From: a virus
Virus record (IMG/VR): IMGVR_UViG_3300046820_000590
Span: 1 to 21,131 of that record
Length of the DNA stretch: 21,131 nucleotides
Strand: one strand, 5' to 3'
The notes under the pieces: model-generated
The model's input: only the letters and a program-made list of their open reading frames with translations
What the model was told of the DNA's origin: nothing
The model's database searches: none
Position numbers and translations under genes: made by a program
In this document: one piece after another, positions 1 through 15,081 of the stretch
Position numbering within the stretch: position 1 is the first letter of the stretch
Layout of the letters: every line of letters begins with the position of its first letter

Positions 1-861
1 GGTAAACATGCAGACTTTAAACTTCCAGAATGGCTTTATATTTTTATATTGCATCGTGTTTGTGGCTCCGCTATTAATTACTCTACTAAACCTAGTGGAT
101 ACCACAACACTCTCCTCTTCAATCTTCACAAAGCTAAAACGATTGAAGGAATGGTTGAGATTGTAAACAAACATCCTAAACCATTCTACACATCTGTTGG
201 TTATCAATTCCCATCATTTCCTAAACCACCAGTAGGATCAAGTTACAAACGAGGTGGTGACTATTATCTAAGCGAATATGCACCACGTTTGGCTAGAGAT
301 CTTGCAGAGTTCTTAGAAAAAGGTGGTAAGCGTGATCTTCGAGAGATCGGAGATTTCATGTTAAAGTGGAACGTAGAGAATGGTCTTCGTCAATACCATT
401 TCCAATATGCAGCAGTAGTTGCTGATATTGCAGATTGGTATCCACAATACACAAACAAAGAATCTCCATTCTATTATGGAACTAATGCAGTTGAATGCAT
501 CTCTTATTTGGCAAAACCAACTACTAAGATGAAACCAATTGAGTTCTTAGATAAAGTTATGGAGAAGATTTATGAAGACGTTAAGTCATATCCATATAAT
601 GCTGAAGACGTATGCTGTGACTTCATCCGTTGGGTAGAAAACTATGTTCGACCTGGTGCAGATTACAATCATTTAAATTATGATACACTGTGGTCATCAT
701 GCAAAATTAAAGATCATCCATTCGGTAGACAAGAAAATATGTTGAAACTTGGATTGGTGAAAACATTTAATGGTATGAAAGCACATCCATCAGATGATGC
801 AGTTATTAAGGCAGCAGGTTTAACAGTAGAACAATATAAAGAACTATGCAAAACGATTTAA
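1..861 (+). CDS. Amino acid:DNA transferase-like (aGPT-PPlase superfamily) protein, 5' partial
   Basis: The reading frame is open to the first base of the window, so the gene starts upstream; the TTG at 49 is only an internal codon. The C-terminal part holds a Tyr-rich segment with YYGTNAVECISYL, then DVCCDFIRWVENYVRPG. The second stretch resembles the 'DVE-x-x-LCEF-x-KY-x-R' element I associate with the alpha-glutamyl/putrescinyl-thymidine pyrophosphorylase (amino acid:DNA transferase) families of hypermodifying phages. In that family the enzyme replaces the pyrophosphate on an activated hydroxymethyluracil in DNA with an amino acid or polyamine. The neighbour at 846 carries a related element, so the two may be diverged paralogues. 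The gene overlaps the next by 16 bases, which suggests a translationally coupled operon. The assignment is from remembered family patterns, not a search, and the exact clade is uncertain. Confidence 0.5.
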   Translation, partial: GKHADFKLPEWLYIFILHRVCGSAINYSTKPSGYHNTLLFNLHKAKTIEGMVEIVNKHPKPFYTSVGYQFPSFPKPPVGSSYKRGGDYYLSEYAPRLARDLAEFLEKGGKRDLREIGDFMLKWNVENGLRQYHFQYAAVVADIADWYPQYTNKESPFYYGTNAVECISYLAKPTTKMKPIEFLDKVMEKIYEDVKSYPYNAEDVCCDFIRWVENYVRPGADYNHLNYDTLWSSCKIKDHPFGRQENMLKLGLVKTFNGMKAHPSDDAVIKAAGLTVEQYKELCKTI

Positions 862-1829
862 CACAATTTATCGATGAGCCATATGTTAATATCACATATG
901 AGAATACATCTCCAGTTGAATTAAAGAACGGTAAACCAACAGAAAGTTGGATGAAAGACTGGACACAAGAACAACGATTCGAAAAGTTCTTTGAGTGGTG
1001 CCAAGCATTTGATAAGCGCGAAGATAAATTGTTGAAAGAAGACTATCAAATCTTCTCTCATCGTTTACATTGGCATGAGCATCCATTTGTGGATGCAATG
1101 CAACCTATCACAGATAATAAGTTACGTTTATTCTATACACTTGTATTCTCATTTAGTAATGAACATTGGGGAACACTCATGTCATTAATGAATGATGGTA
1201 TCATACTAACGCGTGAATGTTTTAAAACACAACGTCATGCGCGCAACGATCTATTCCAAATCTATTACCCTAAAGGCACGAACGTAAAAGATTGGTTAAT
1301 AGATGGTCCAATGAAAGCTGCAGAAGATATTCATACTATCTTAGATGAACCTGCAAAGATGGGACGACCATTCACAATGATGGAGTTTGCTAAACGTTTA
1401 GAAGCATACTTCAAAGAACATCAAGGTTTTAGAAGTCCACTATATCCATGTAAGAACACCGCACGTTACATGGCATTTGCATATCCACATTTAGTAGACC
1501 CAGAATCTGTGTTGTTTGGTGGTACAGGTCACTTCGATGGCATGCAACAAATCTTCGGTGGTCCAAATTTAAACGGCAAAGTTAAGTACGAGATTGGACC
1601 AAATGGAGAGTTTACAGCGACGAATAAGTATGGTATAATGTGGCTAGAACAAATGAACACATTAGCCAACGATCCTCGCAACCCAATGACTGTGCAAAAG
1701 ATGTTGAACGTAGAAGATAAGACTTGCTTCTTCTACAAGCATATAGCTATTAGTCATGGTGTGAAGTCGCCAACTAAACGAATCCCATATACATGGATTT
1801 TCCCACAAGAATTCAGTCTTAAAAAATGA
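846..1829 (+). CDS. Second amino acid:DNA transferase-like (aGPT-PPlase superfamily) protein
   Basis: A 327-residue protein. Its middle has NTARYMAFAYPHLVDPESVLFG followed by GGTGHFDGMQQIFGG, recalling the 'TDL...WANPGPGA-x-RGL' helical region of aGPT-PPlase/amino acid:DNA transferase proteins. Further on, NVEDKTCFFYKHIAISHGVKSP matches the conserved 'DVE...CEF-x-KY' element near the C-terminus of that family. It starts inside the end of the preceding gene, and its own last four bases hold the next start codon, so it sits in one operon with the SGNH and PLP genes. The known reaction of the family is transfer of an amino acid onto a pyrophosphorylated hydroxymethyl-pyrimidine in DNA. Two such proteins side by side could have different acceptors or form a heteromer; that is inference. 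An unrelated helical protein cannot be excluded without a profile search. Confidence 0.5.
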   Translation: MQNDLTQFIDEPYVNITYENTSPVELKNGKPTESWMKDWTQEQRFEKFFEWCQAFDKREDKLLKEDYQIFSHRLHWHEHPFVDAMQPITDNKLRLFYTLVFSFSNEHWGTLMSLMNDGIILTRECFKTQRHARNDLFQIYYPKGTNVKDWLIDGPMKAAEDIHTILDEPAKMGRPFTMMEFAKRLEAYFKEHQGFRSPLYPCKNTARYMAFAYPHLVDPESVLFGGTGHFDGMQQIFGGPNLNGKVKYEIGPNGEFTATNKYGIMWLEQMNTLANDPRNPMTVQKMLNVEDKTCFFYKHIAISHGVKSPTKRIPYTWIFPQEFSLKK

Positions 1830-2809
1830 AAATACTAACTAATCCAATTAGTAACATTCCTCAATTAAAAAATTCACACGTACTAGGTTGGTCGTTAGTA
1901 TGGGCAGATCAATTAGATGCAGCTATCGATCATAAGTGTTCTCCTAATATTGCTAATGCATCAGTTGTTTATATCGAGCATGGTGTAAACTTTGGTGGTA
2001 CACTAAATTTATTTGGAGGTGCAACTAAAGAGATTTTCGATAGAATTAATAGAGTTGCTGCACATCCAAATGTAGTGTCATTAGATTTTGATATGCCTGC
2101 ATGGGGAGAACAACTTAAGAAACGTATCGGTGCACCTACAACTTATGTAGGAATTACTGAACAATGGTGTGATGCACTAACTAAACGTCTAAGCACTATT
2201 CAATCTGTAAAACAAGAAGACTTATTAGGTGTGTCAAGCAAGTTCGATGGTATCTCTGTTGGTGATTCTCATACACCAGCATTCTCATGCTCAAGCGATA
2301 TCGTTCTACGCGAAAACGGTAAAACATTATATGGTACATTAAAGCGTGGATTAATTACTGAATTCAGAGGATTAAAACCTTTTGGCAATATTACATTTTG
2401 TTATGGTTCTATTGATGTACGTCATCATATTCTCCGCCATCAGAATTTTAATTTAGATGACATGTTAGATGAGTATGTAAGACAAGCAGTCATGATTCAG
2501 AAAGAACATAAGTGCGACATCTCATTTACAACTCCAGTACCAGTTGAATACGAAGAACGTAGATTACCAAAGACTGGTTATTTTAAAGGTACTCCATTTT
2601 TTGGATCAAGACAAGAACGTTTAGACCTTACATACCGAATTGTTGAAGGACTAAATAAAAGAAAGGTGAATGTAATCCAACCGCCTGAAGAATGGTACAA
2701 AATGGATGGTGAGAAGTACGCTAAGACTTATATGGAAAACGGATCGAGCGTTCATATCTCTCCACAATATTATAGAAGAAAAGACTGGGGAAATACGTGT
2801 TTAGCATAA
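1826..2809 (+). CDS. SGNH/GDSL-hydrolase-like protein in the hypermodification cassette
   Basis: A 327-residue protein. Residues 146-149 read GDSH, the block I motif of SGNH hydrolases with Ser148 as candidate nucleophile. Residues 193-201 read YGSIDVRHH, resembling the Gly/Asn-bearing oxyanion-hole blocks, and the C-terminus has a candidate catalytic His310 in SSVHISPQYY. The usual Asp three residues before that His is not evident (Ser307 is there), so catalysis may differ or be lost. The first 130 or so residues are not part of the SGNH core and I do not recognise them. No signal peptide is seen, which suits a cytoplasmic role. Start and stop codons overlap both neighbours, placing it between the transferase-like and PLP genes. 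It may trim or transfer an acyl, amino-acyl or sugar group on a modified base; that role is inferred from context only. Confidence 0.6.
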   Translation: MKILTNPISNIPQLKNSHVLGWSLVWADQLDAAIDHKCSPNIANASVVYIEHGVNFGGTLNLFGGATKEIFDRINRVAAHPNVVSLDFDMPAWGEQLKKRIGAPTTYVGITEQWCDALTKRLSTIQSVKQEDLLGVSSKFDGISVGDSHTPAFSCSSDIVLRENGKTLYGTLKRGLITEFRGLKPFGNITFCYGSIDVRHHILRHQNFNLDDMLDEYVRQAVMIQKEHKCDISFTTPVPVEYEERRLPKTGYFKGTPFFGSRQERLDLTYRIVEGLNKRKVNVIQPPEEWYKMDGEKYAKTYMENGSSVHISPQYYRRKDWGNTCLA

Positions 2810-3747
2810 CAGAAGATACAGGCAACAAAGACATTCCTATGGGAATGGATCGACAAGAAGCAAATGATTATTACATGGAAATGTGGGGAACATTTAATTC
2901 TAAAGTTGCAGACCCAGTAGTAGAACAATACGGTGATAAATACATCCTCCGTGCAGATCTTGCACCAGGTGGACTAAAATCTTTTGGTGGTGAAAGAGTT
3001 ATTGCTGAATGTAAATACGACACATTAACATATTGTGCACCTCGGCAAGGTCATGCTATGGATGCAATCTCTATGCTCGCTGAAATGTACAATAAGAAAG
3101 TCGTATTCTTTTGTCCATCTTCTAAACGAGTATCTGACCATCAAGGAGCATTGTTCTCGTATCCTCACGTTGACATGCGCTTCGTTAGGATTGCAGCAAT
3201 GCCAGTTTTAAATCAGTACGCTAAGAATTGGGCTAAAGAAAACAATGCACAATATCTTCCGCTTGGTTTAAAGAATATGCCAATGGTTACAGCAGGACTT
3301 GTGAACATGGCGAATAAGATAACTAAACAGTTAGGCAAAGAACCTACACAAATTTGGTGTGCAGTGTCAACAGGAACTATGACACGTGCATTACAAATCG
3401 GTTGGCCATCAGCAGAAGCACATGGTGTTGCAGTAGCACGTAACATCCATAAAGGCGAAATCGGAGATGCAAAAGTTGTTTCAGCAATTATGCCATTTCT
3501 TAAAGCATATAAAACAAAACATGCATTACCATTCCCTACTACAGCAGCTTATGATGCTAAAGCTTGGGATTTATTCGTAGAGCATGGAAAACCTGGTTCG
3601 ATCTTCATCAACGTTGGATCAGACGAACACATTAACCGTAACTTGCAATCAGTAGACATTGACAACATTAATAGCTACAGAGAATGGCATGATATGGAAG
3701 ATTTAAAACGTAACAGAGCATTTAAAAACAGTGTACATACAGTGTAA
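2797..3747 (+). CDS. Fold-type II PLP-dependent enzyme (tryptophan-synthase-beta/cysteine-synthase-like)
   Basis: A 316-residue protein with candidate Schiff-base Lys61 in GGLKSFGGERV. A Rossmann-like strand (KKVVFFCPSS) follows, then STGTMTRAL, which fits the Gly/Ser/Thr-rich phosphate-binding loop of the tryptophan-synthase-beta superfamily. The C-terminus ends in FINVGSDEH. The start is a GTG at 2797 with a GGGGA element just upstream, inside the end of the preceding gene; an ATG at codon 15 is the alternative. In phages that hypermodify thymidine, a PLP enzyme works after the amino acid:DNA transferase, for example by decarboxylating an amino acid already attached to the base. The position directly after transferase-like genes supports that role here. 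The substrate cannot be told from sequence, and a free amino acid is also possible. Confidence 0.7.
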   Translation: MFSITEDTGNKDIPMGMDRQEANDYYMEMWGTFNSKVADPVVEQYGDKYILRADLAPGGLKSFGGERVIAECKYDTLTYCAPRQGHAMDAISMLAEMYNKKVVFFCPSSKRVSDHQGALFSYPHVDMRFVRIAAMPVLNQYAKNWAKENNAQYLPLGLKNMPMVTAGLVNMANKITKQLGKEPTQIWCAVSTGTMTRALQIGWPSAEAHGVAVARNIHKGEIGDAKVVSAIMPFLKAYKTKHALPFPTTAAYDAKAWDLFVEHGKPGSIFINVGSDEHINRNLQSVDIDNINSYREWHDMEDLKRNRAFKNSVHTV

Positions 3748-3783: not shown

Positions 3784-4848
3784 ATGGGATTAATGGATAA
3801 ACTTAAGAAGAACTCGAAGATCGAATTCACTTCGCCTCTCGAGGAATCAAAGTTCTTCGGCAATAAGGATGTCATCTCGACACCTGTGCCAATGATTAAC
3901 GTAGCACTTGGTGGTCGTCTCGATGGTGGTCTCACACCAGGTTTGACAGTACTTGCTGGTCCAAGTAAACACTTCAAGACAGCATTCTCTTTGCTGATGG
4001 CAAAAGCATACATGGATAAGTACGAAGATGCAGTCATGTTATTCTATGATTCAGAATTTGGTACACCACAAGCATATTTCGATTCGTTTGGTATTGACAA
4101 GTCTCGTGTACTTCATACTCCTATCACTGACGTTGAGCAACTAAAGTTTGATGTAGTATCACAACTAAACAACCTAACACGTGGCGAAAAAGTTATTATC
4201 GTCATCGATTCTGTGGGTAACTTAGCATCTAAGAAAGAACTCGAAGATGCATTGAATGAAAAATCTGTGGCAGATATGTCACGTGCTAAAGCACTTAAAG
4301 GTTTGTTCCGTATGATTACTCCTTACTTGACTATGAAAGATGTACCAATGGTCGTAGTGAATCATACGTATATGGAAATTGGTATGTTCCCTAAAGCTGT
4401 TGTCTCTGGTGGTACAGGCATTTATTACTCAGCTGATACAATTTGGATCTTAGGCCGTCAACAAGATAAAGACGGTACAGAGATCAAAGGTTACCACTTC
4501 ATCATCAACGTTGAGAAGAGTCGTTATGTTAAAGAAAAATCTAAAATCCCTGTATCTGTTTCTTTCGAGGGTGGAATTCAGCGTTATAGCGGGTTGCTTG
4601 ATATTGCTTTGGCTGGTAATTTCGTTGGTAAACCTAATAACGGGTGGTATCAAAAAATCGATCGAGAAACAGGTGAGTTCCTCGGCACAAAAGTACGAGA
4701 GAAGGACACGCTCAATCAAGAATTCTGGGCAGACTTACTAGATTCTGAAGAATTCCAACAGTACATCATCGACTCATTCCAAGTTGGTAGCGGTAAAATG
4801 TATCAACAACCTGAACAAGAAGAAGAATTAGAAGATGATCACGCATGA
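3784..4848 (+). CDS. uvsX: UvsX-type RecA-like recombinase
   Basis: A RecA-superfamily strand-exchange protein of 354 residues, close to the usual UvsX length. Walker A is GPSKHFKT at 59-66, the UvsX form of the P-loop in which Ser-Lys precedes the terminal Lys-Thr. Walker B lies at KVIIVIDSVGN, and a Gly-rich segment (SGGTGIYYSADTIW) corresponds to the DNA-binding loop region. The C-terminus is strongly acidic. In T4 it forms the presynaptic filament with UvsY and gp32 and drives recombination-dependent replication; the replicative helicase follows here after one small gene. An AGGAGC element sits just before the ATG and the gene has its own promoter. The last 14 bases overlap the next gene. 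Confidence 0.95.
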   Translation: MGLMDKLKKNSKIEFTSPLEESKFFGNKDVISTPVPMINVALGGRLDGGLTPGLTVLAGPSKHFKTAFSLLMAKAYMDKYEDAVMLFYDSEFGTPQAYFDSFGIDKSRVLHTPITDVEQLKFDVVSQLNNLTRGEKVIIVIDSVGNLASKKELEDALNEKSVADMSRAKALKGLFRMITPYLTMKDVPMVVVNHTYMEIGMFPKAVVSGGTGIYYSADTIWILGRQQDKDGTEIKGYHFIINVEKSRYVKEKSKIPVSVSFEGGIQRYSGLLDIALAGNFVGKPNNGWYQKIDRETGEFLGTKVREKDTLNQEFWADLLDSEEFQQYIIDSFQVGSGKMYQQPEQEEELEDDHA

Positions 4849-5179
4849 TAGTTACACCTTCGTCGAACATAAAGGCGAAGAAGATTGGTACGTTAAGCTA
4901 AAACAAGGCGACTACAAAGACGTCATCTACAAATACGGTAGAATTGAAGTAGAAGAAGATGACGTCGAAGAATCTGCTAAACTAAAATTCCAATTCAAAG
5001 TGGCAAAAATCCCGCAAGAATTGGAAATGACAGAGGAAGAGTTGCAAGAAGACTTAACATTCTTAAATCTATTAGGTGACGTTCTTACGCATATCATCGA
5101 AGATGCTATGGAAACAGGCAAATATAAATTAGGACAAAATGATAAGCCAACTGATTCTGAATCAACTGTGCACGAATGA
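4835..5179 (+). CDS. Small acidic hypothetical protein between uvsX and the helicase gene
   Basis: A 114-residue protein that I cannot assign. It is very acidic, has alternating charged segments (a Glu/Asp run around residue 40) and a predicted helical C-terminal half. It overlaps uvsX by 14 bases at its 5' end and the helicase gene by 41 bases at its 3' end, so it is translated as part of the replication-recombination operon. The position suggests an accessory role with UvsX or the helicase, but nothing in the sequence shows this. The ribosome binding site is only a weak AGAAG-like run inside uvsX. Confidence 0.75.
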   Translation: MITHDSYTFVEHKGEEDWYVKLKQGDYKDVIYKYGRIEVEEDDVEESAKLKFQFKVAKIPQELEMTEEELQEDLTFLNLLGDVLTHIIEDAMETGKYKLGQNDKPTDSESTVHE

Positions 5180-6527
5180 AGAGTTTGTTAGACGTGCTCT
5201 TCCTTTCTTAAAGCCAGAGTACTTCGAAAGAAGTGAGAAACTACTGTTCGCAGTGGTGTCTCACTTTGTGGACAAATATAATACAGTACCAACTGAAGCA
5301 GCATTAAAACTTGAACTACAAAAGATCCCTAATCTTTCTAACGAGATCATGGATCAAGTATCTGCTGCGTACAAAGCAGAACCCGTTGATATCCAATGGA
5401 TGCTAGATGAAACTGAAAAGTTTTGCCAAGATCGTTCGATCTACTTGGCAATTATGGAATCCATTCAAATTATTGATGGTAAACATAAGGAGCTTTCTAA
5501 CAATGCAATTCCAGATATCCTATCTAAAGCTTTGGGCGTTAGCTTTGATACTAACATTGGTCATGACTATATTGACTCTTCCGACTCGCGTTATGACTTC
5601 TATCATAAAGTTGAGGGGCGTTTGCCTTTTGACTTGGACTTCTTTAACAAGATCACTAAAGGCGGTTTGCCAAATAAGACTCTCAACATTATTCTTGCTG
5701 GTACTGGTGTTGGTAAGTCATTATTCATGTGTCATATGGCTGGCTCGTCACTAGTACAAGGTAAAAATGTACTATACATAACCATGGAAATGGCAGAAGA
5801 ACGTATCGCTGAACGTATCGATGCAAACTTGATGAACATTCCAATTGACCAACTTGAGCAGTTACCTAAAGCTGTGTACGATCAAAAGATTCAAAAGATT
5901 GGACAAAAGAATATTGGTAAGTTAATCATTAAAGAATATCCAACTGGAGCTGCCCACGTTGGGCACTTTAGAGCATTAATTAATGAACTTAAACTTAAGA
6001 AGAACTTTAAACCAGATATCATCTTTATTGATTACCTTAATATCTGTGCCTCATCGCGTGTTAAAGGATTGGGTGGATCAATTAATACTTACTCATACGT
6101 TAAGGCGATCGCAGAAGAAATGCGTGGCTTTGCGGTCGAAAACAACTGTCCAATCGTATCCGCGACTCAGACGACTCGTTCTGGTTATTCAAATACGGAT
6201 GTTGGTTTGGAAGACACGTCGGAAAGTTTCGGCTTGCCTGCGACAGCGGACTTCATGTTCGCAGTCATCTCAACAGAAGAATTAGAGAAACTTGGCCAAC
6301 TTATGGTTAAGCAATTGAAGAATCGATATAATGATCCTACATTCCATAAGAGATTCATCATTGGTGTTGATCGTGCTAGAATGAAACTATATGATGTTGA
6401 AGCAAGCGCACAAACTTTGATTGATGATGCTGCACATGTAGCAACTAAACAAGAAGATAAACCATTAAACACATTCGGTGATAGAGAAAAACCATCGAAA
6501 GATTTTGGAAGTTTTACATATGATTGA
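5139..6527 (+). CDS. 41: DnaB-like replicative helicase, T4 gp41 type
   Basis: A 462-residue hexameric-helicase homologue. The N-terminal domain (about 1-130) begins MISQLILNQL, which lines up with the N-terminus I recall for T4 gp41 and supports this start despite the 41-base overlap with the gene before. The RecA-like C-terminal domain has Walker A GTGVGKS at 188-194, a Walker B segment IIFIDYLNIC near 300, and a downstream SATQTTR segment typical of DnaB helicases (motif H3). The protein should unwind the fork 5' to 3' and work with a primase that is not in this window. It ends with the start codon of the next gene embedded in its last codons. Confidence 0.93.
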   Translation: MISQLILNQLCTNEEFVRRALPFLKPEYFERSEKLLFAVVSHFVDKYNTVPTEAALKLELQKIPNLSNEIMDQVSAAYKAEPVDIQWMLDETEKFCQDRSIYLAIMESIQIIDGKHKELSNNAIPDILSKALGVSFDTNIGHDYIDSSDSRYDFYHKVEGRLPFDLDFFNKITKGGLPNKTLNIILAGTGVGKSLFMCHMAGSSLVQGKNVLYITMEMAEERIAERIDANLMNIPIDQLEQLPKAVYDQKIQKIGQKNIGKLIIKEYPTGAAHVGHFRALINELKLKKNFKPDIIFIDYLNICASSRVKGLGGSINTYSYVKAIAEEMRGFAVENNCPIVSATQTTRSGYSNTDVGLEDTSESFGLPATADFMFAVISTEELEKLGQLMVKQLKNRYNDPTFHKRFIIGVDRARMKLYDVEASAQTLIDDAAHVATKQEDKPLNTFGDREKPSKDFGSFTYD

Positions 6528-6756
6528 TAATGATATTCCAGGCATCGATATCGATGTCTTAGAAAATGAAGAGATGTGGGCTCAAAGAGCAATTGACTAC
6601 CGTGGTAAAGGTAAATACAAAGTAAGTTATTACAACAGTGGGCAAATGGTAGTTTTTAAATGGTTTGACACATTCGCAGAAGCAACAGACTTCTGTGTCT
6701 ATCATGTCAAAACAAATGATGTAATCGAAGTGAAATGGTATCCAAATGAAAGTTAA
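6520..6756 (+). CDS. Small hypothetical protein
   Basis: A 78-residue acidic protein of unknown function. I chose the ATG at 6520, which overlaps the helicase stop codon and has GGAAG nine bases upstream; an in-frame upstream ATG at 6478 lies deep in the helicase gene and has no better ribosome site. The sequence alternates short strands and a helix (KYKVSYYNSGQMVVFKWFDT, then an EATDFCVYH helix), suggesting a compact alpha/beta fold. Its 3' end overlaps the thyX start. Confidence 0.7.
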   Translation: MIDNDIPGIDIDVLENEEMWAQRAIDYRGKGKYKVSYYNSGQMVVFKWFDTFAEATDFCVYHVKTNDVIEVKWYPNES

Positions 6757-7435
6757 ATTAGTATCGTATAGCAAACCAAGTCGCGAGTTTTATGACGAAG
6801 GTTTGATGGATGTGCAAGATCTTATTGCGTTTTGTGCTCGTGTAAGTAACCCAACAAACCAATTTAATAGCGGTACATCTGAGAAGTTGATTAAATATCT
6901 TATCAACAACCAGCATTGGTCTCCGCTTGAAATGGTAAGTGCTTGTATGGAGATTACTACTACACGTGATATCGCTCGTCAGATCTTACGTCATCGTTCA
7001 TTCTCATTCCAAGAATTTAGTCAACGATATTCAGATCCAACTGCACAGTTAGACGAAGCATTCGTGTTACGAGAAGCTAGGTTTCAAGACACTAAGAATC
7101 GTCAGAATAGTGTAGAACTCGATATGAACGACGAGGCTCAACGACTATTGGCTATCGAATGGGAACGTGCTCAGAAGCGTGTTCTATTCTCTGTTAAACA
7201 AGAATATGAATGGGCTATTAAGAATGGTATCGCCAAAGAACAAGCACGTGCTGTTCTACCAGAAGGTTTGACTGTAAGTCGTATGTACATGAACGGCACT
7301 TTACGTTCATGGATCCACTTTATTGAACTTCGTTCGGGTAACGGTACACAAAAAGAACATAGAGAAGTCGCAGTAGCAATCGCTAAATGTATTGCAGAGA
7401 TTTTCCCTATGGCTAGCGACTTAACAGGAAAATAA
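6746..7435 (+). CDS. thyX: Flavin-dependent thymidylate synthase ThyX
   Basis: Makes dTMP from dUMP using methylenetetrahydrofolate, FAD and NAD(P)H. The 229-residue length is typical. The diagnostic motif RHRSFSFQEFS (residues 82-92, RHR-x7-S) is intact, followed by QRYS; the C-terminal segment with LRSGNGTQKEHRE carries the usual substrate-binding Arg and Gln/His residues. It overlaps the gene before by 11 bases and is followed one base later by the aldolase gene. It should supply thymidylate during phage replication. In a phage that may carry modified thymine, a ThyX with altered output (hydroxymethyl-dUMP) can be imagined, but the visible motif is that of an ordinary ThyX. Confidence 0.95.
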   Translation: MKVKLVSYSKPSREFYDEGLMDVQDLIAFCARVSNPTNQFNSGTSEKLIKYLINNQHWSPLEMVSACMEITTTRDIARQILRHRSFSFQEFSQRYSDPTAQLDEAFVLREARFQDTKNRQNSVELDMNDEAQRLLAIEWERAQKRVLFSVKQEYEWAIKNGIAKEQARAVLPEGLTVSRMYMNGTLRSWIHFIELRSGNGTQKEHREVAVAIAKCIAEIFPMASDLTGK

Positions 7436-7436
7436 T

Positions 7437-8090
7437 ATGTTAGAAACTATATGCGATATTATGGTTGACGCTTATAAGCGTAATTGGATTACAAGTCGAG
7501 ATGGTAACGTAAGTATTCGCCACCACGATAGAGACCATTTTTATATTACACCAAGTGGTATCCGTAAACAAACATTGCAACCAGACCAATTTAAAAAGAT
7601 TGCAATCCATAAAAGCATCAACAGTGGATGTGGAACTGCATCATTTAATTATAGTTGGGAGGAAGTAGAATACACTGACATTAGTGCAAAGCTAAAACCA
7701 AGTGGAGAAATGCCTCTACACTTTGGTTTACAAAAAGAAATGGGTCAGCACAAAGACGATGTTAGAGTTGTAGTTCATGTGCATCCAACATACTGTATTG
7801 CTGCTATGCATGCAGGTATCGATCTAAGTACAATTAGCGATGCATTTCCGGAACTTAATCGATATACACGTGTAGCACCTAACGTAGGTGATGTACCACC
7901 AATTAGTCAAGAACTTGCAGACCAGTGTCATACAAATTTAAAGTTAGATAGAGATGGTAATGTAGCTTATGACATCGTAGGCATCAAAGGACATGGTGTG
8001 GTTGCTATTGATACCAGTCCATGGAGAGCATATGAGCACATTGAGCGCTTAGAACACATCTGTAAGATAGTACTAGCTTCAGGAAAATAA
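7437..8090 (+). CDS. Class II aldolase/adducin-family enzyme
   Basis: A 217-residue protein with the full zinc-aldolase active-site set: GNVS at 23-26 and PSG at 39-41 (phosphate binding), PSGEMPLH with Glu91 as the catalytic acid/base, HVHP at 114-117 giving two zinc His residues, and KGHG at 184-187 giving the third. The family includes fuculose-phosphate and rhamnulose-phosphate aldolases, ribulose-phosphate 4-epimerase and methylthioribulose-phosphate dehydratase; I cannot choose between them. AGGA lies seven bases before the ATG, right behind the thyX stop, so both genes share a transcript that ends at the terminator near 8150. An intact class II aldolase in a phage is unusual and suggests a role in nucleotide, sugar or base-modifier metabolism. 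Confidence 0.9.
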   Translation: MLETICDIMVDAYKRNWITSRDGNVSIRHHDRDHFYITPSGIRKQTLQPDQFKKIAIHKSINSGCGTASFNYSWEEVEYTDISAKLKPSGEMPLHFGLQKEMGQHKDDVRVVVHVHPTYCIAAMHAGIDLSTISDAFPELNRYTRVAPNVGDVPPISQELADQCHTNLKLDRDGNVAYDIVGIKGHGVVAIDTSPWRAYEHIERLEHICKIVLASGK

Positions 8091-11453: not shown

Positions 11454-12629
11454 ATGAAATCGTTTACGAACTTTCTATTAGAGGAAGATGAAGGTGCAAA
11501 ACTAAAGCACATTCATCATGCTGAAGATAGACCATTGTTTCATGGTTCAGAAGGTTTCGATCATGCTCATAGTGCTTTACAACAAGCACATGACTCTATC
11601 AAGGCTGGTGAACACAGTACTGCACTAACAATGAAGTATGACGGTTCTCCTGCTGTTGTTTTTGGCCACCACCCAAAAACTGGTAAGTTCTTTGTTGCAT
11701 CTAAATCTGCATTCAACAAAAATCCAAAGATCAATTACACCGAAAAAGATGTTGATGATAATCATGGTCATGCACCAGGTTTGGCAACAAAATTAAAAGC
11801 TGCGCTTAAGCATCTTCCTAAAGTTGCTCCTAAAAATGGTGTATATCAAGGTGATATCATGCATACACCTGACGATCACAAGAAAAATAAAGATGGTAGT
11901 GTATCGTTCACACCAAACACAATCACCTACACGGCTAAGGGCGAAGAGGCTGACAAAGTTAAGAAGTCTAAAGTTGGTATTGTAGTGCATACTAAATACG
12001 AAGGCAAAGATCTTCACACAATGCATGCTACACCCAATGCAAGTCAAGAAGATTTTGAATCACACCCAGATGTACATTTAAAATCTGCTGAACACGATAC
12101 TACACAAGTACATTATACGAAAGATCAAGAAGCAGAATTCAAAAAACACATGGATGCTGCAAAAGAGATTCATAAGAAACAAGGCAAAAAGATGTATGCA
12201 GGTACTTTGAAACATCAAGGCGAAGCTGGTCACTTATCGACATACATCAATCATACTGTACGTACAGATGAAACTCCATCTGCAGAAGGTTTTATGCAAC
12301 ATCTTAAAAACGTCCATCAAAAACTAGCAGATAAAGTTAAGACAGAAAAAAGTAAGGCAGAAAAACTATCAGCTGGAAAAGAACACGTATCTCATGTTCA
12401 GAAGAACAAAGAACATTATGATAATTTGTTTAAGATGCATCAGCACTTGCAAAAAGCAAAGAACATCTTAACGAGTGCATTAGAGACACACGAAGGTGGT
12501 TTAGAACACCATATCGATGGTAAGAAGTCGAAACCAGAAGGTTTCGTTGTTAATCATAAAGGCGAACCAACTAAATTAGTTAATCGTGCAGAGTTTGCTA
12601 AAGCTAATCTATTAAAGGTAAGAAAATAA
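11454..12629 (+). CDS. Ligase-like covalent nucleotidyltransferase with a capsid-targeting-like N-terminus
   Basis: A 391-residue protein. The motifs of ATP-dependent ligases occur in order: KYDGSP at 61-66 (motif I, Lys61 as candidate adenylated residue), ASKS (Ia-like), GVYQGDIM at 129-136 (motif III), EGFVV at 362-366 (motif IV) and KLV at 374-376 (motif V). A His/Lys-rich, probably helical insert separates III from IV. I recall related phage proteins filed as DUF6267. Three ATGs are possible (11433, 11448, 11454). The last gives MKSFTNFLLE, which fits the targeting pattern exactly, whereas 11448 has better ribosome-site spacing. The stop overlaps the next ATG (TAATG). It could seal nicks in nucleic acid after entry into the host; that is inference. 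Confidence 0.75.
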   Translation: MKSFTNFLLEEDEGAKLKHIHHAEDRPLFHGSEGFDHAHSALQQAHDSIKAGEHSTALTMKYDGSPAVVFGHHPKTGKFFVASKSAFNKNPKINYTEKDVDDNHGHAPGLATKLKAALKHLPKVAPKNGVYQGDIMHTPDDHKKNKDGSVSFTPNTITYTAKGEEADKVKKSKVGIVVHTKYEGKDLHTMHATPNASQEDFESHPDVHLKSAEHDTTQVHYTKDQEAEFKKHMDAAKEIHKKQGKKMYAGTLKHQGEAGHLSTYINHTVRTDETPSAEGFMQHLKNVHQKLADKVKTEKSKAEKLSAGKEHVSHVQKNKEHYDNLFKMHQHLQKAKNILTSALETHEGGLEHHIDGKKSKPEGFVVNHKGEPTKLVNRAEFAKANLLKVRK

Positions 12630-13249
12630 TGTTGACATTCTTAACATTCCTAAAAGAAGAAGCTGAAGCCAAGCACGCAGTATTGGCTTATGGTCGCATG
12701 AATCCTCCAACTACTGGTCACCTTAAAGTTATCAACAAAGTACAAGACGTGGCTAAAGAAGTAGGTGGAGAACATCACATGGTTGTTTCTCACTCTAACG
12801 ACTCTAAAAAGAATCCATTATCTTCAGAACAAAAAGTAAAACACTTAAGACGTTATGCACCAGGTGCAAATATTAAAGCTGCATCTAAAGACAATCCAAC
12901 AATCTTCTCTCATGCTGCAGAACTACATAAACAAGGTGTAACACACTTACACATTGTTGCTGGTTCAGATCGCGTTGATGAATACAAAAAGAAATTCAAA
13001 GAACTAAATGGTAAACCTAATAAAGATGGTAAAGTACCATTCAAGTTTAAGAAGATAACAGTACATTCTTCAGGTGAAAGAGATCCTGATGCTGAAGGCG
13101 ACGAAGGTATGTCAGGTACAAAGATGCGCGAACATGCTAAGAACAATGACTTTAAGTCATTCCGCAAAGGTGTTCCTAGCCATGTATCAGATAACGATGC
13201 AAAAGAATTAATGAATGATGTACGCAAAGGTATGGGACATACTGATTAA
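12629..13249 (+). CDS. Cytidylyltransferase/NMNAT-like nucleotidyltransferase with a capsid-targeting-like N-terminus
   Basis: A 206-residue HxGH-superfamily enzyme. Residues 1-10 (MLTFLTFLKE) fit the targeting pattern. The core begins at about 17: AYGRMNPPTTGH puts TTGH (the (H/T)xGH nucleotide-binding motif) at 28-31, IVAGSDRVDEY at 109-119 resembles the NMNAT substrate loop, and MSGTKMR at 161-167 is the ISSTxxR-type motif that holds the triphosphate. All catalytic signatures are present. The family joins NTP to a phosphorylated substrate such as NMN, FMN or pantetheine phosphate, releasing pyrophosphate; NMN is possible but unproven. It overlaps the preceding ligase-like gene by one base. 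A paralogue with lost motifs lies at 14131. Confidence 0.85.
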   Translation: MLTFLTFLKEEAEAKHAVLAYGRMNPPTTGHLKVINKVQDVAKEVGGEHHMVVSHSNDSKKNPLSSEQKVKHLRRYAPGANIKAASKDNPTIFSHAAELHKQGVTHLHIVAGSDRVDEYKKKFKELNGKPNKDGKVPFKFKKITVHSSGERDPDAEGDEGMSGTKMREHAKNNDFKSFRKGVPSHVSDNDAKELMNDVRKGMGHTD

Positions 13250-13705: not shown

Positions 13706-14129
13706 AGAGTATTCGCACGAATTCGATGATGTCGCTGAGTCTGTTGGGCTAACAGAGGAAGAGCAGTCTATACTAAATGAGGTATTAGATACTGCAGCGC
13801 GCATTAAAAAGAAACAACAATTCATGCGCCGTTCAGCACGCATCCAAATGGCTAAGAAGATCCAATCAAGACGCTTAGCTAGCAAAGACCGTCTCACAGC
13901 AAGAGCCAAACAAAGAGCACGCAATCTGCTAATTAAACGCCTTTATCAAGGTCGTTCTCGCTCAGAAATTCCAATCGCACAAAGAAAACAAGTTGATTTG
14001 AAACTCTCAAAGATGAAGGGTTCTATCAAACGTATTTCAGGTAAACTATTACGTCGTGTGAAACAAGAAGACATTGCTCGGAAGAGTGGCAAGAAGTTGG
14101 CTAAATTTAACGCTGGAAGCGGTTTATAA
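13692..14129 (+). CDS. Highly basic small protein, internal-protein-like
   Basis: A 145-residue protein. Residues 1-10 (MITFKEYSHE) match the targeting pattern at Phe4, Tyr7 and Glu10 but have Ser at position 8 where Leu/Ile is expected, so cleavage is less certain. After an acidic stretch (to about 45) the protein is very rich in Lys and Arg with predicted long helices (KKKQQFMRRSARIQMAKKI). Size, charge and N-terminus resemble the packaged internal proteins of T4, which bind DNA in the head. GGGAAA lies before the ATG, and the late box at 13563 is the nearest promoter. One base separates its stop from the next gene. Confidence 0.8.
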   Translation: MITFKEYSHEFDDVAESVGLTEEEQSILNEVLDTAARIKKKQQFMRRSARIQMAKKIQSRRLASKDRLTARAKQRARNLLIKRLYQGRSRSEIPIAQRKQVDLKLSKMKGSIKRISGKLLRRVKQEDIARKSGKKLAKFNAGSGL

Positions 14130-14130
14130 T

Positions 14131-15081
14131 ATGAAACAGTTTAAGGAATATTTGAAGGAATCTAGTGGCAAGGTTACGATAACTTTTGGTCATTTTAATC
14201 CTCCAAATATTGAGCATGAGAAAATCATTAATAAAGTGCATGAAACTGCACAAGGTGGACCGTATAGGATCTATACTTCACAAGAATGTAATGAGAGTTC
14301 TCCGCTAGATTACAATACAAAGATTAAATTTATGCGCAAGATGTTTCCACGTCAAGCGCGTTCTATCATTAGTGATTCAAAGATCGTAGATTTATATGAT
14401 GCACTAGATTCTTTGTACGAACAAGGTTATACACACGTTAATCTTGTTATGCCTAATGTGCGAACACAACTAATTGAATCTGTAAATAAAGACAATAGAT
14501 CTCGTTACAATTTCAAGACAATTGATTTTATTTCCGTTGATACACATGACATCGAAGCAAAAGTTGTCGAGTCAGTTAAAGACAACAACTACGAGTTGTT
14601 TAATAAGTTTTTGCCATCAACAATAAAAGAAAATCAAAAGCTTTTTAATGCTATCCGTGTAGGATTAGGATTAAAAGAAACATTTAATTTTAGACAACAT
14701 ATCCAGTTACCAACATTGTCTAAAGAACGTGAAGCATATGTAAGCGGTGAATTATTTAAAGTTGGTGATGTAGTTGAAGTAAAAGAATCTAAAGACATTG
14801 GTCAAATCCAACGATTAGGCTCTAACTATGTAATTATTGAAACTTACGAAGGTGTTAAGCAACGTAAATGGTTGCGCGATGTTATTAAAGTAGAAGAAGC
14901 TGTCATCAATCAAATGCTTGAAAAGATGGGAAATCCTTGTTGGACTGGTTACAGTATGGTTGGTACAAAAGAAAAAGATGGTAAAACAGTACCAAACTGT
15001 GTACCTATAAATAAGAAAAATAAAACAAAGCTTAAGTCATTTAAAGAAGACTTATCAACATTCGATGGGAATAACAAATGA
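14131..15081 (+). CDS. Degenerate nucleotidyltransferase-like protein with KOW-like and CWxGY modules
   Basis: A 316-residue protein. I chose ATG 14131 because MKQFKEYLKE at 1-10 is the clearest copy of the targeting pattern; GGAAG lies upstream. Residues 15-182 follow the fold of the enzyme encoded at 12629, but TGH has become IEH (NPPNIEHE at 23-30), the AGSDR loop is MPNVR (107-111), and SGTKMR is replaced by THDIEAK. It is probably inactive as a nucleotidyltransferase. Residues 209-253 (FKVGDVVEV ... GSNYVIIETYEG ... KWLRDVIKV) look like a small KOW/SH3-type barrel. Residues 270-292 hold CWTGYSMVG ... VPNCVP, a module also present in the protein encoded at 15336. Likely a virion-associated structural protein. 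Confidence 0.82.
   Translation: MKQFKEYLKESSGKVTITFGHFNPPNIEHEKIINKVHETAQGGPYRIYTSQECNESSPLDYNTKIKFMRKMFPRQARSIISDSKIVDLYDALDSLYEQGYTHVNLVMPNVRTQLIESVNKDNRSRYNFKTIDFISVDTHDIEAKVVESVKDNNYELFNKFLPSTIKENQKLFNAIRVGLGLKETFNFRQHIQLPTLSKEREAYVSGELFKVGDVVEVKESKDIGQIQRLGSNYVIIETYEGVKQRKWLRDVIKVEEAVINQMLEKMGNPCWTGYSMVGTKEKDGKTVPNCVPINKKNKTKLKSFKEDLSTFDGNNK
15006..15013 (+). promoter_or_regulatory. T4-type late promoter box TATAAATA within the preceding gene
   Basis: An exact TATAAATA 65 bases before the small structural gene at 15078. It lies inside a Lys/Asn-rich coding stretch, so chance is possible, but its position before a likely abundant virion protein fits. Confidence 0.5.

Follow-up and report, generated by a model that had tools for sequence, protein, structure and literature searches.

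Which base of the phage genome is modified, and with what chemical group, is the question raised by a cassette of four overlapping genes, here named A, B, C and D, at the start of the IMG/VR virus record IMGVR_UViG_3300046820_000590. The window analyzed is the entire record of 21,131 bases, a fragment of a T4-like phage. The data suggest, with a probability that we put at about 0.6, that the cassette is a post-replicative module of a T4-like phage for a non-glucose, probably amino-acid-derived hypermodification of 5-hydroxymethylcytosine (hmC). The first-pass annotation of the window had described a DNA hypermodification cassette that may act on thymine through hydroxymethyluracil (hmU); the cassette itself, with two transferase-fold proteins and a pyridoxal phosphate (PLP) enzyme of the type found in phage M6, was borne out, and the thymine and hmU part was not.

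The four overlapping genes described at first reading were confirmed as open reading frames (ORFs) on the plus strand that fill the first 3,747 bases of the window: A at 1..861, B at 846..1829, C at 1826..2809 and D at 2797..3747, the last with a GTG start. Gene A is open at its 5′ end, where the contig end cuts it; the family is about 385 amino acids long at full length, and the window copy starts near family residue 104. Compared with close relatives, the changes in all four genes were mostly synonymous and in third positions, with, for A, 70 synonymous versus 20 amino-acid-changing codons. Close-relative scans confirmed relatives of A in 284 stretches, of B in 146 and of C in 30, and by profile relatives of A were found in 533 stretches; among 84,980 species genomes of bacteria and archaea, just four A relatives turned up, all in contigs of metagenome-assembled genomes. 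Because hundreds of viral contigs encode relatives, the changes are mostly synonymous and the genes keep company across many, widely varying arrangements, A to D are genuine conserved genes and not chance frames.

Since the contig ends before the genes upstream of A, these were taken from relatives. In a close relative (L013; A, B and C 92%, 94% and 91% identical to the window, respectively), the order was DNA polymerase, PRA-PH pyrophosphohydrolase, primase, DUF1599, a thymidylate-synthase-family gene, deoxycytidine monophosphate (dCMP) deaminase and a uracil-DNA glycosylase (UDG)-superfamily gene, followed by A, B, C, D, uvsX, a small ORF, a gene 41 helicase and ThyX. The synthase-family gene beside the cassette shared 56-64% identity with T4-group phage proteins annotated as dCMP hydroxymethylases. 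The cytosine-specifying Asp was present in 55/55 copies of the relatives' hydroxymethylase examined, not all of them independent, within a motif (G[YF][KR]NDYAWQ) that matches GFRNDYAWQ of RB32 gp42, whereas the M6 and nACB2 enzymes are without that Asp and have an Asn one column away. Asp177 has been reported as a mark of modified-cytosine contigs, and the Pfam set found upstream in the relatives (PF00303, PF01503, PF00383 and PF14437) is one whose joint occurrence in phage contigs with modified cytosine has been reported (PMC8670742). The hydroxymethylase linked to the cassette in relatives is thus predicted to be a gp42 orthologue of the dCMP type, and not the upstream deoxyuridine monophosphate (dUMP) hydroxymethylase proposed as a check of the thymine claim. 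Of 83 distinct A loci that have 3 kb or more of sequence upstream, 50 had it within 6 kb and on the same strand; where both sides offered room (51 A loci), 18 had uvsX downstream besides the hydroxymethylase. Another relative, whose cassette order is different, holds a further and distinct synthase-family gene in which the base-specifying position is also Asp (GLTFDAPFF; G005:C1:164369-165010, L284).

The position of the cassette also bears on the base. In T4 the order is 42, beta-gt, segA, uvsX, 40 and 41, and in the relatives it is 42, dCMP deaminase, the UDG-like gene, A-B-C-D, uvsX, a small ORF of gp40 size and 41. The cassette occupies the slot of the T4 beta-glucosyltransferase (beta-GT) gene. 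When 12 large relatives were searched for the T4 alpha- and beta-GT families, no match was obtained, but no positive control was detected either and the absence of these families is not established.

Genes A and B matched no Pfam or NCBIfam family, and PDB sequence searches with the A, B and C profiles returned nothing credible. AlphaFold models were good for A, built on a full-length homologue (L012; predicted local distance difference test score, pLDDT, 85.9; predicted template modeling score, pTM, 0.87), and for B (pLDDT 88.4, pTM 0.87). When PDB chains were aligned by VIA, the top match of both models was 8z2n, the solved 5-phosphomethyl-deoxyuridine (5-PmdU) glycinyltransferase gp46 of phage PaMx11, which is an amino acid:DNA transferase (A: Z 10.1, 209 residues aligned, root-mean-square deviation 4.0; B: Z 9.7, 225 aligned, 4.2, followed by 8z2m at Z 9.1). 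Behind it came helix-hairpin-helix (HhH) 8-oxoguanine (AGOG) glycosylases at about Z 8 and below, with DUF2419 lower in the list. Foldseek matched A to the helical domains of the 5-hydroxymethyl-deoxyuridine (5-hmdU) DNA kinases of SP10 and phiRSL1 (probability 0.96-0.97) and B to an A homologue (E 1e-3, probability 1.0), and in BFVD the two models retrieved homologues of each other, B being a likely distant paralogue of A. Close phage homologues of both carry the UniProt name 'Amino acid:DNA transferase domain-containing protein', which is a database name only. Near the C-terminus, an invariant helix was found in A (E305-x3-C309-x3-R313) and in B (E290-x3-C294-x3-K298), and both thereby carry the E-x3-C helix of the ADDT family, in which E243/C247 (gp46 numbering) are invariant; residue 320 of A aligns near gp46 258, an offset that fits 305 = 243 as judged from the aligned range and not from a residue-by-residue map.

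Sequence profiles gave a different picture. The ADDT profile (PF18724) had no match at E <= 10 among 16 A and 20 B members, and hhalign of A and B, as single sequences or small profiles, against ADDT and HMUDK_hel provided no usable link. B scored 23.3 against HMUDK_hel in the expected register and above 40/40 shuffles, but with an E of 0.029, and the scores of A against ADDT and HMUDK_hel were within the shuffle null. The accepted relatives ADDT and HMUDK_hel reach just 36.5 in the same setting, and the missing sequence match of A and B is therefore weak evidence. Judged on the predicted models, the assignment of A and B to the amino acid:DNA transferase fold is good; they are called ADDT-fold proteins here, and not ADDT proper, because the ADDT profile test fails. 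Their initial description as amino acid:DNA-transferase-like is thus upheld by fold, with PaMx11 gp46 first, and not by any sequence profile.

The fourth gene, D, falls in phrog_7093 (E 9.1e-67), the family to which M6 gp52 belongs. The D profile reached an hhalign score of 60.3 against M6 gp52 (shuffle maximum 22), and the alignment ends at a common PFP..YD.KAW..FWN(V/I)G signature. The PLP lysine (K61) and the STG and NVG motifs are invariant in D. The family match, the alignment to gp52 and the lysine and phosphate-loop motifs together confirm the first-pass call of a PLP enzyme, and D is predicted to be of fold type II. M6 gp52 is the PLP enzyme of thymidine hypermodification in that phage.

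Gene C belongs to phrog_13881 (E 1.8e-123). It had been called SGNH-like because it carries GDSH, G[NS][IV]D and late-His motifs, and among 116 distinct full-length members GDSH and G[NS][IV]D[IVL]R were each present in 116/116 and [VFL]H[LIV][SAG] in 112/116. However, Ser replaces the canonical Asn of SGNH block III in the window copy, the DxxH block is without its Asp, and Pfam GDSL matched a single member of the family at E 0.14, so that profile evidence for SGNH is weak and the assignment is only partly supported. Residues ~36-106 of C instead resemble residues 27-100 of T4 beta-GT, in its N-domain. The C profile scored 38-39 in hhalign against that segment, a value reached by 0/60 shuffles (maximum 23), and the N-terminal part of C alone scored 39.1. 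The Pfam beta-GT family PF09198 was matched in 6 of 26 C members, with a best E of 5e-4 at 20.3 bits versus a curated cut-off of 27, and the PHROG beta-GT family phrog_7922 in one member at E 0.0036. C appears to be a composite whose chemistry is uncertain, its N-terminal segment being beta-GT-like and its second half SGNH-like. Given the beta-gt slot and this segment, hmC in DNA is the most likely substrate of the cassette.

The same segment raises an alternative, a sugar-type modification in which C would be a divergent glycosyltransferase acting on hmC, with A, B and D decorating the product further or with A and B being DNA glycosylase-like. The HhH glycosylase matches of A and B fit with it, as do the homologues of C in cultured T4-like phages of Aeromonas, including phage 25, in which a stand-alone C adjoins an ORF that clusters with UDP-galactopyranose-mutase-like proteins. 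We nevertheless consider a sugar unlikely, since the match covers only about 70 residues of C, the second half of C is unlike beta-GT (score 16.2, within the null), several C members have Pro in the column that aligns with beta-GT Asp100, and glucosylation has no known use for a PLP enzyme of the M6 type. In Aeromonas Biquartavirus (L001:6959-9382, L002:6959-9382), the C homologue is fused to a further ~460 amino acids, and such fusions are present in the cultured Aeromonas phages 31, 44RR2.8t and others. The phage 31 fusion (the C domain plus ~460 amino acids) and its neighbors were tested as carriers of A-, B- or D-like parts, which was not supported.

A second alternative starts from hmU, on which A and B would act as amino acid:DNA transferases and D as the PLP enzyme to yield the kind of 5-substituted thymine that ViI and M6 make. 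The closest fold of A and B, a 5-PmdU glycinyltransferase, and the membership of D in the M6 gp52 family both speak for it, and to our knowledge every known enzyme of the amino acid:DNA transferase kind acts on hmU. Against this, the hydroxymethylase beside the cassette bears the dCMP-specifying Asp, and the cassette sits in the slot of an hmC glucosyltransferase. No 5-hmdU DNA kinase (PF18748, PF18723) was found in the 12 large relatives (0/12), whose records may be incomplete, by a search that does detect M6, and neither the HMUDK_hel nor the ADDT profile had a match in these relatives, with M6 detected as the positive control. The presence of ThyX in the window and the lack of a 5-hmdU kinase are consistent with ordinary thymine. 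We regard the hmU handle as improbable: the kinase that the first-pass annotation had expected was not seen in the 12 large relatives, and the dCMP-type hydroxymethylase, the beta-gt slot and the beta-GT-like N-terminus of C, together with the missing kinase, point to hmC in place of the modified thymine that it had suggested. That the cassette acts on free nucleotides, RNA or proteins and not on DNA is very improbable, for although its members vary, some loci lacking B and others both C and D, and the queuine-salvage family DUF2419, a small-molecule enzyme, is among the lower fold matches of A and B, their best matches are DNA-acting enzymes and the cassette is tightly linked with a dCMP hydroxymethylase and itself sits in the beta-gt position.

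On the preferred reading, an amino-acid-derived hypermodification of hmC, the upstream gp42-type dCMP hydroxymethylase would make 5-hydroxymethyl-dCMP for the phage DNA, while the dCMP deaminase, the PRA-PH/MazG-type pyrophosphohydrolase and DUF1599 ('nucleotide modification associated domain 1') would adjust the nucleotide pools. A and B would be base-flipping enzymes that act on hmC in DNA and replace the T4 beta-GT, and from one or both the 5-methylene carbon would probably receive an amino acid, or some other small nucleophile like it; D would then rearrange or trim the adduct. The beta-GT-like N-terminal segment of C may recognize hmC-containing DNA, and its GDSH/His active-site-like half may activate the hydroxymethyl group or complete the adduct. 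Gene content, folds, families, synteny and the type of hydroxymethylase in relatives were observed, and it is inferred that hmC in DNA is the substrate, in which order the enzymes work, that the adduct derives from an amino acid, and what C does.

Several points weigh against this reading. Two relatives, of 165 kb (G006) and 150 kb (G007), hold A to D with no hydroxymethylase detected, a local-profile search included, and therefore the gp42-type gene is not universal, although both records may be incomplete. The hydroxymethylase lies outside the window itself, and no 5-hmdU DNA kinase that could activate hmC was found in the 12 large relatives. For A and B alike, no usable link to ADDT or HMUDK_hel came from sequence profiles, a Z near 10 is a moderate value for helical proteins, and with the HhH 8-oxoguanine glycosylases next in the list, the two proteins could represent a different branch of that fold. 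B is absent from some cassettes, and C and D from others. The confidence given at the outset was held at that level because of the missing kinase and ADDT matches, the two relatives without a detected hydroxymethylase and the loci without B or without C and D.

Among known systems, the thymidine hypermodification of M6, PaMx11 and ViI shares with the cassette the PaMx11 gp46 fold of A and B and the M6 gp52 family of D. It differs in that the relatives of the cassette have a gp42-type dCMP hydroxymethylase and not a dUMP-type enzyme, in that no HMUDK kinase, helical-domain or ADDT profile match was obtained on the cassette side, and in the two transferase-fold proteins, the extra protein C and the T4-like genomic context of the cassette. 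With T4 gene 42 and hmC glucosylation by beta-GT, the cassette shares an orthologous hydroxymethylase (in relatives), the position between 42 and uvsX and the beta-GT likeness of the C N-terminus, whereas it consists of four genes, PLP and transferase-fold enzymes among them. Phages with 5-carbamoyloxymethyl-deoxycytidine, identified by MetaGPA, have an Asp-type hydroxymethylase, a dCMP deaminase and PRA-PH domains in common with it, and a non-sugar group on hmC is already known from them, but there it is placed by a carbamoyltransferase (PMC8670742), compared with ADDT-fold and PLP enzymes here. An amino acid at the C5 of cytosine in phage DNA, as proposed for the cassette, is likewise known from Synechococcus phage S-B43, which makes 5-carboxymethylcytosine-glycine by CmoA/CmoX/CmoY (PMC12783734); that route uses a carboxy-S-adenosylmethionine methyltransferase and an ATP-dependent amide ligase, has no hydroxymethylase, and its enzymes are unrelated to those of the cassette. 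RB69 and Thanatos are T4-like phages with a group other than the T4 glucose on modified cytosine, namely arabinosyl-hmC and deoxypentosyl-cytosine (PMC6024577, PMC12838424), in which a sugar is transferred by different enzymes. No description of ADDT-fold and M6-type PLP enzymes at a dCMP-hydroxymethylase locus was found in the open-access papers searched.

The only base on which we know this enzyme class to carry out amino-acid-type hypermodification is thymine, via hmU. If the proposal is true, transferase and PLP chemistry known from thymine would have moved to cytosine via hmC, where the activation step would be another one. The wider claim is more tentative and falls slightly short of an even chance, namely that widespread T4-like phages build an amino-acid-derived hypermodified hmC with two ADDT-fold enzymes, a PLP enzyme of the M6 type and a beta-GT/SGNH-like protein, all encoded in the glucosyltransferase slot, and do so without a DNA kinase. 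If the proposal holds, T4-like phages would be shielded from restriction and CRISPR by a group that is not a sugar, enzymes new to us for adding or altering groups on hmC (which is widely mapped in epigenetic work) would become available, and the content of the beta-gt locus would be explained for the many T4-like phages from the environment that have the cassette.

Downstream of the cassette, on the plus strand, the right-hand synteny anchor uvsX (3784..4848) matched phrog_97, a UvsX-like recombinase, at E 9.5e-92, and the second anchor, a gene 41-type replicative helicase (5139..6527), matched phrog_19, a DnaB-like helicase, at E 1e-129. The 114-amino-acid ORF between them (4835..5179; phrog_3998) holds the position of T4 gene 40, and its likeness to gp40 is positional only. 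ThyX (6746..7435; thymidylate synthase phrog_85, E 2.5e-67) would serve the ordinary supply of deoxythymidine monophosphate. A class II aldolase/adducin-family protein follows at 7437-8090 (PF00596, E 7e-27); in L160, L161 and relatives a homologue lies inside the cassette between D and A, with B absent there, and may therefore be a further tailoring enzyme.

Other genes were observed at the loci of relatives. The UDG-superfamily protein directly upstream of A in many relatives (L013:9298-9711) matched PF03167 at E 1.8e-6. In a lineage without C and D, the gene upstream of A-B (L142:3967-4743) had no match in PHROGs and by eye resembles an HhH-GPD (EndoIII/MBD4-like) glycosylase. Also judged by eye, a protein between B and D in one lineage (L109:5032-5700) has a LOG-family-like PGGxGTxxE motif, and a 492-amino-acid protein between the DNA polymerase and PRA-PH genes (L016:4829-6307) resembles a flavin-dependent enzyme of the tryptophan-halogenase type. 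Within the window, two cytidyltransferase/nucleotidyltransferase-like proteins of one cluster (12629-13249 and 14074-15081) lie beside structural-type genes.

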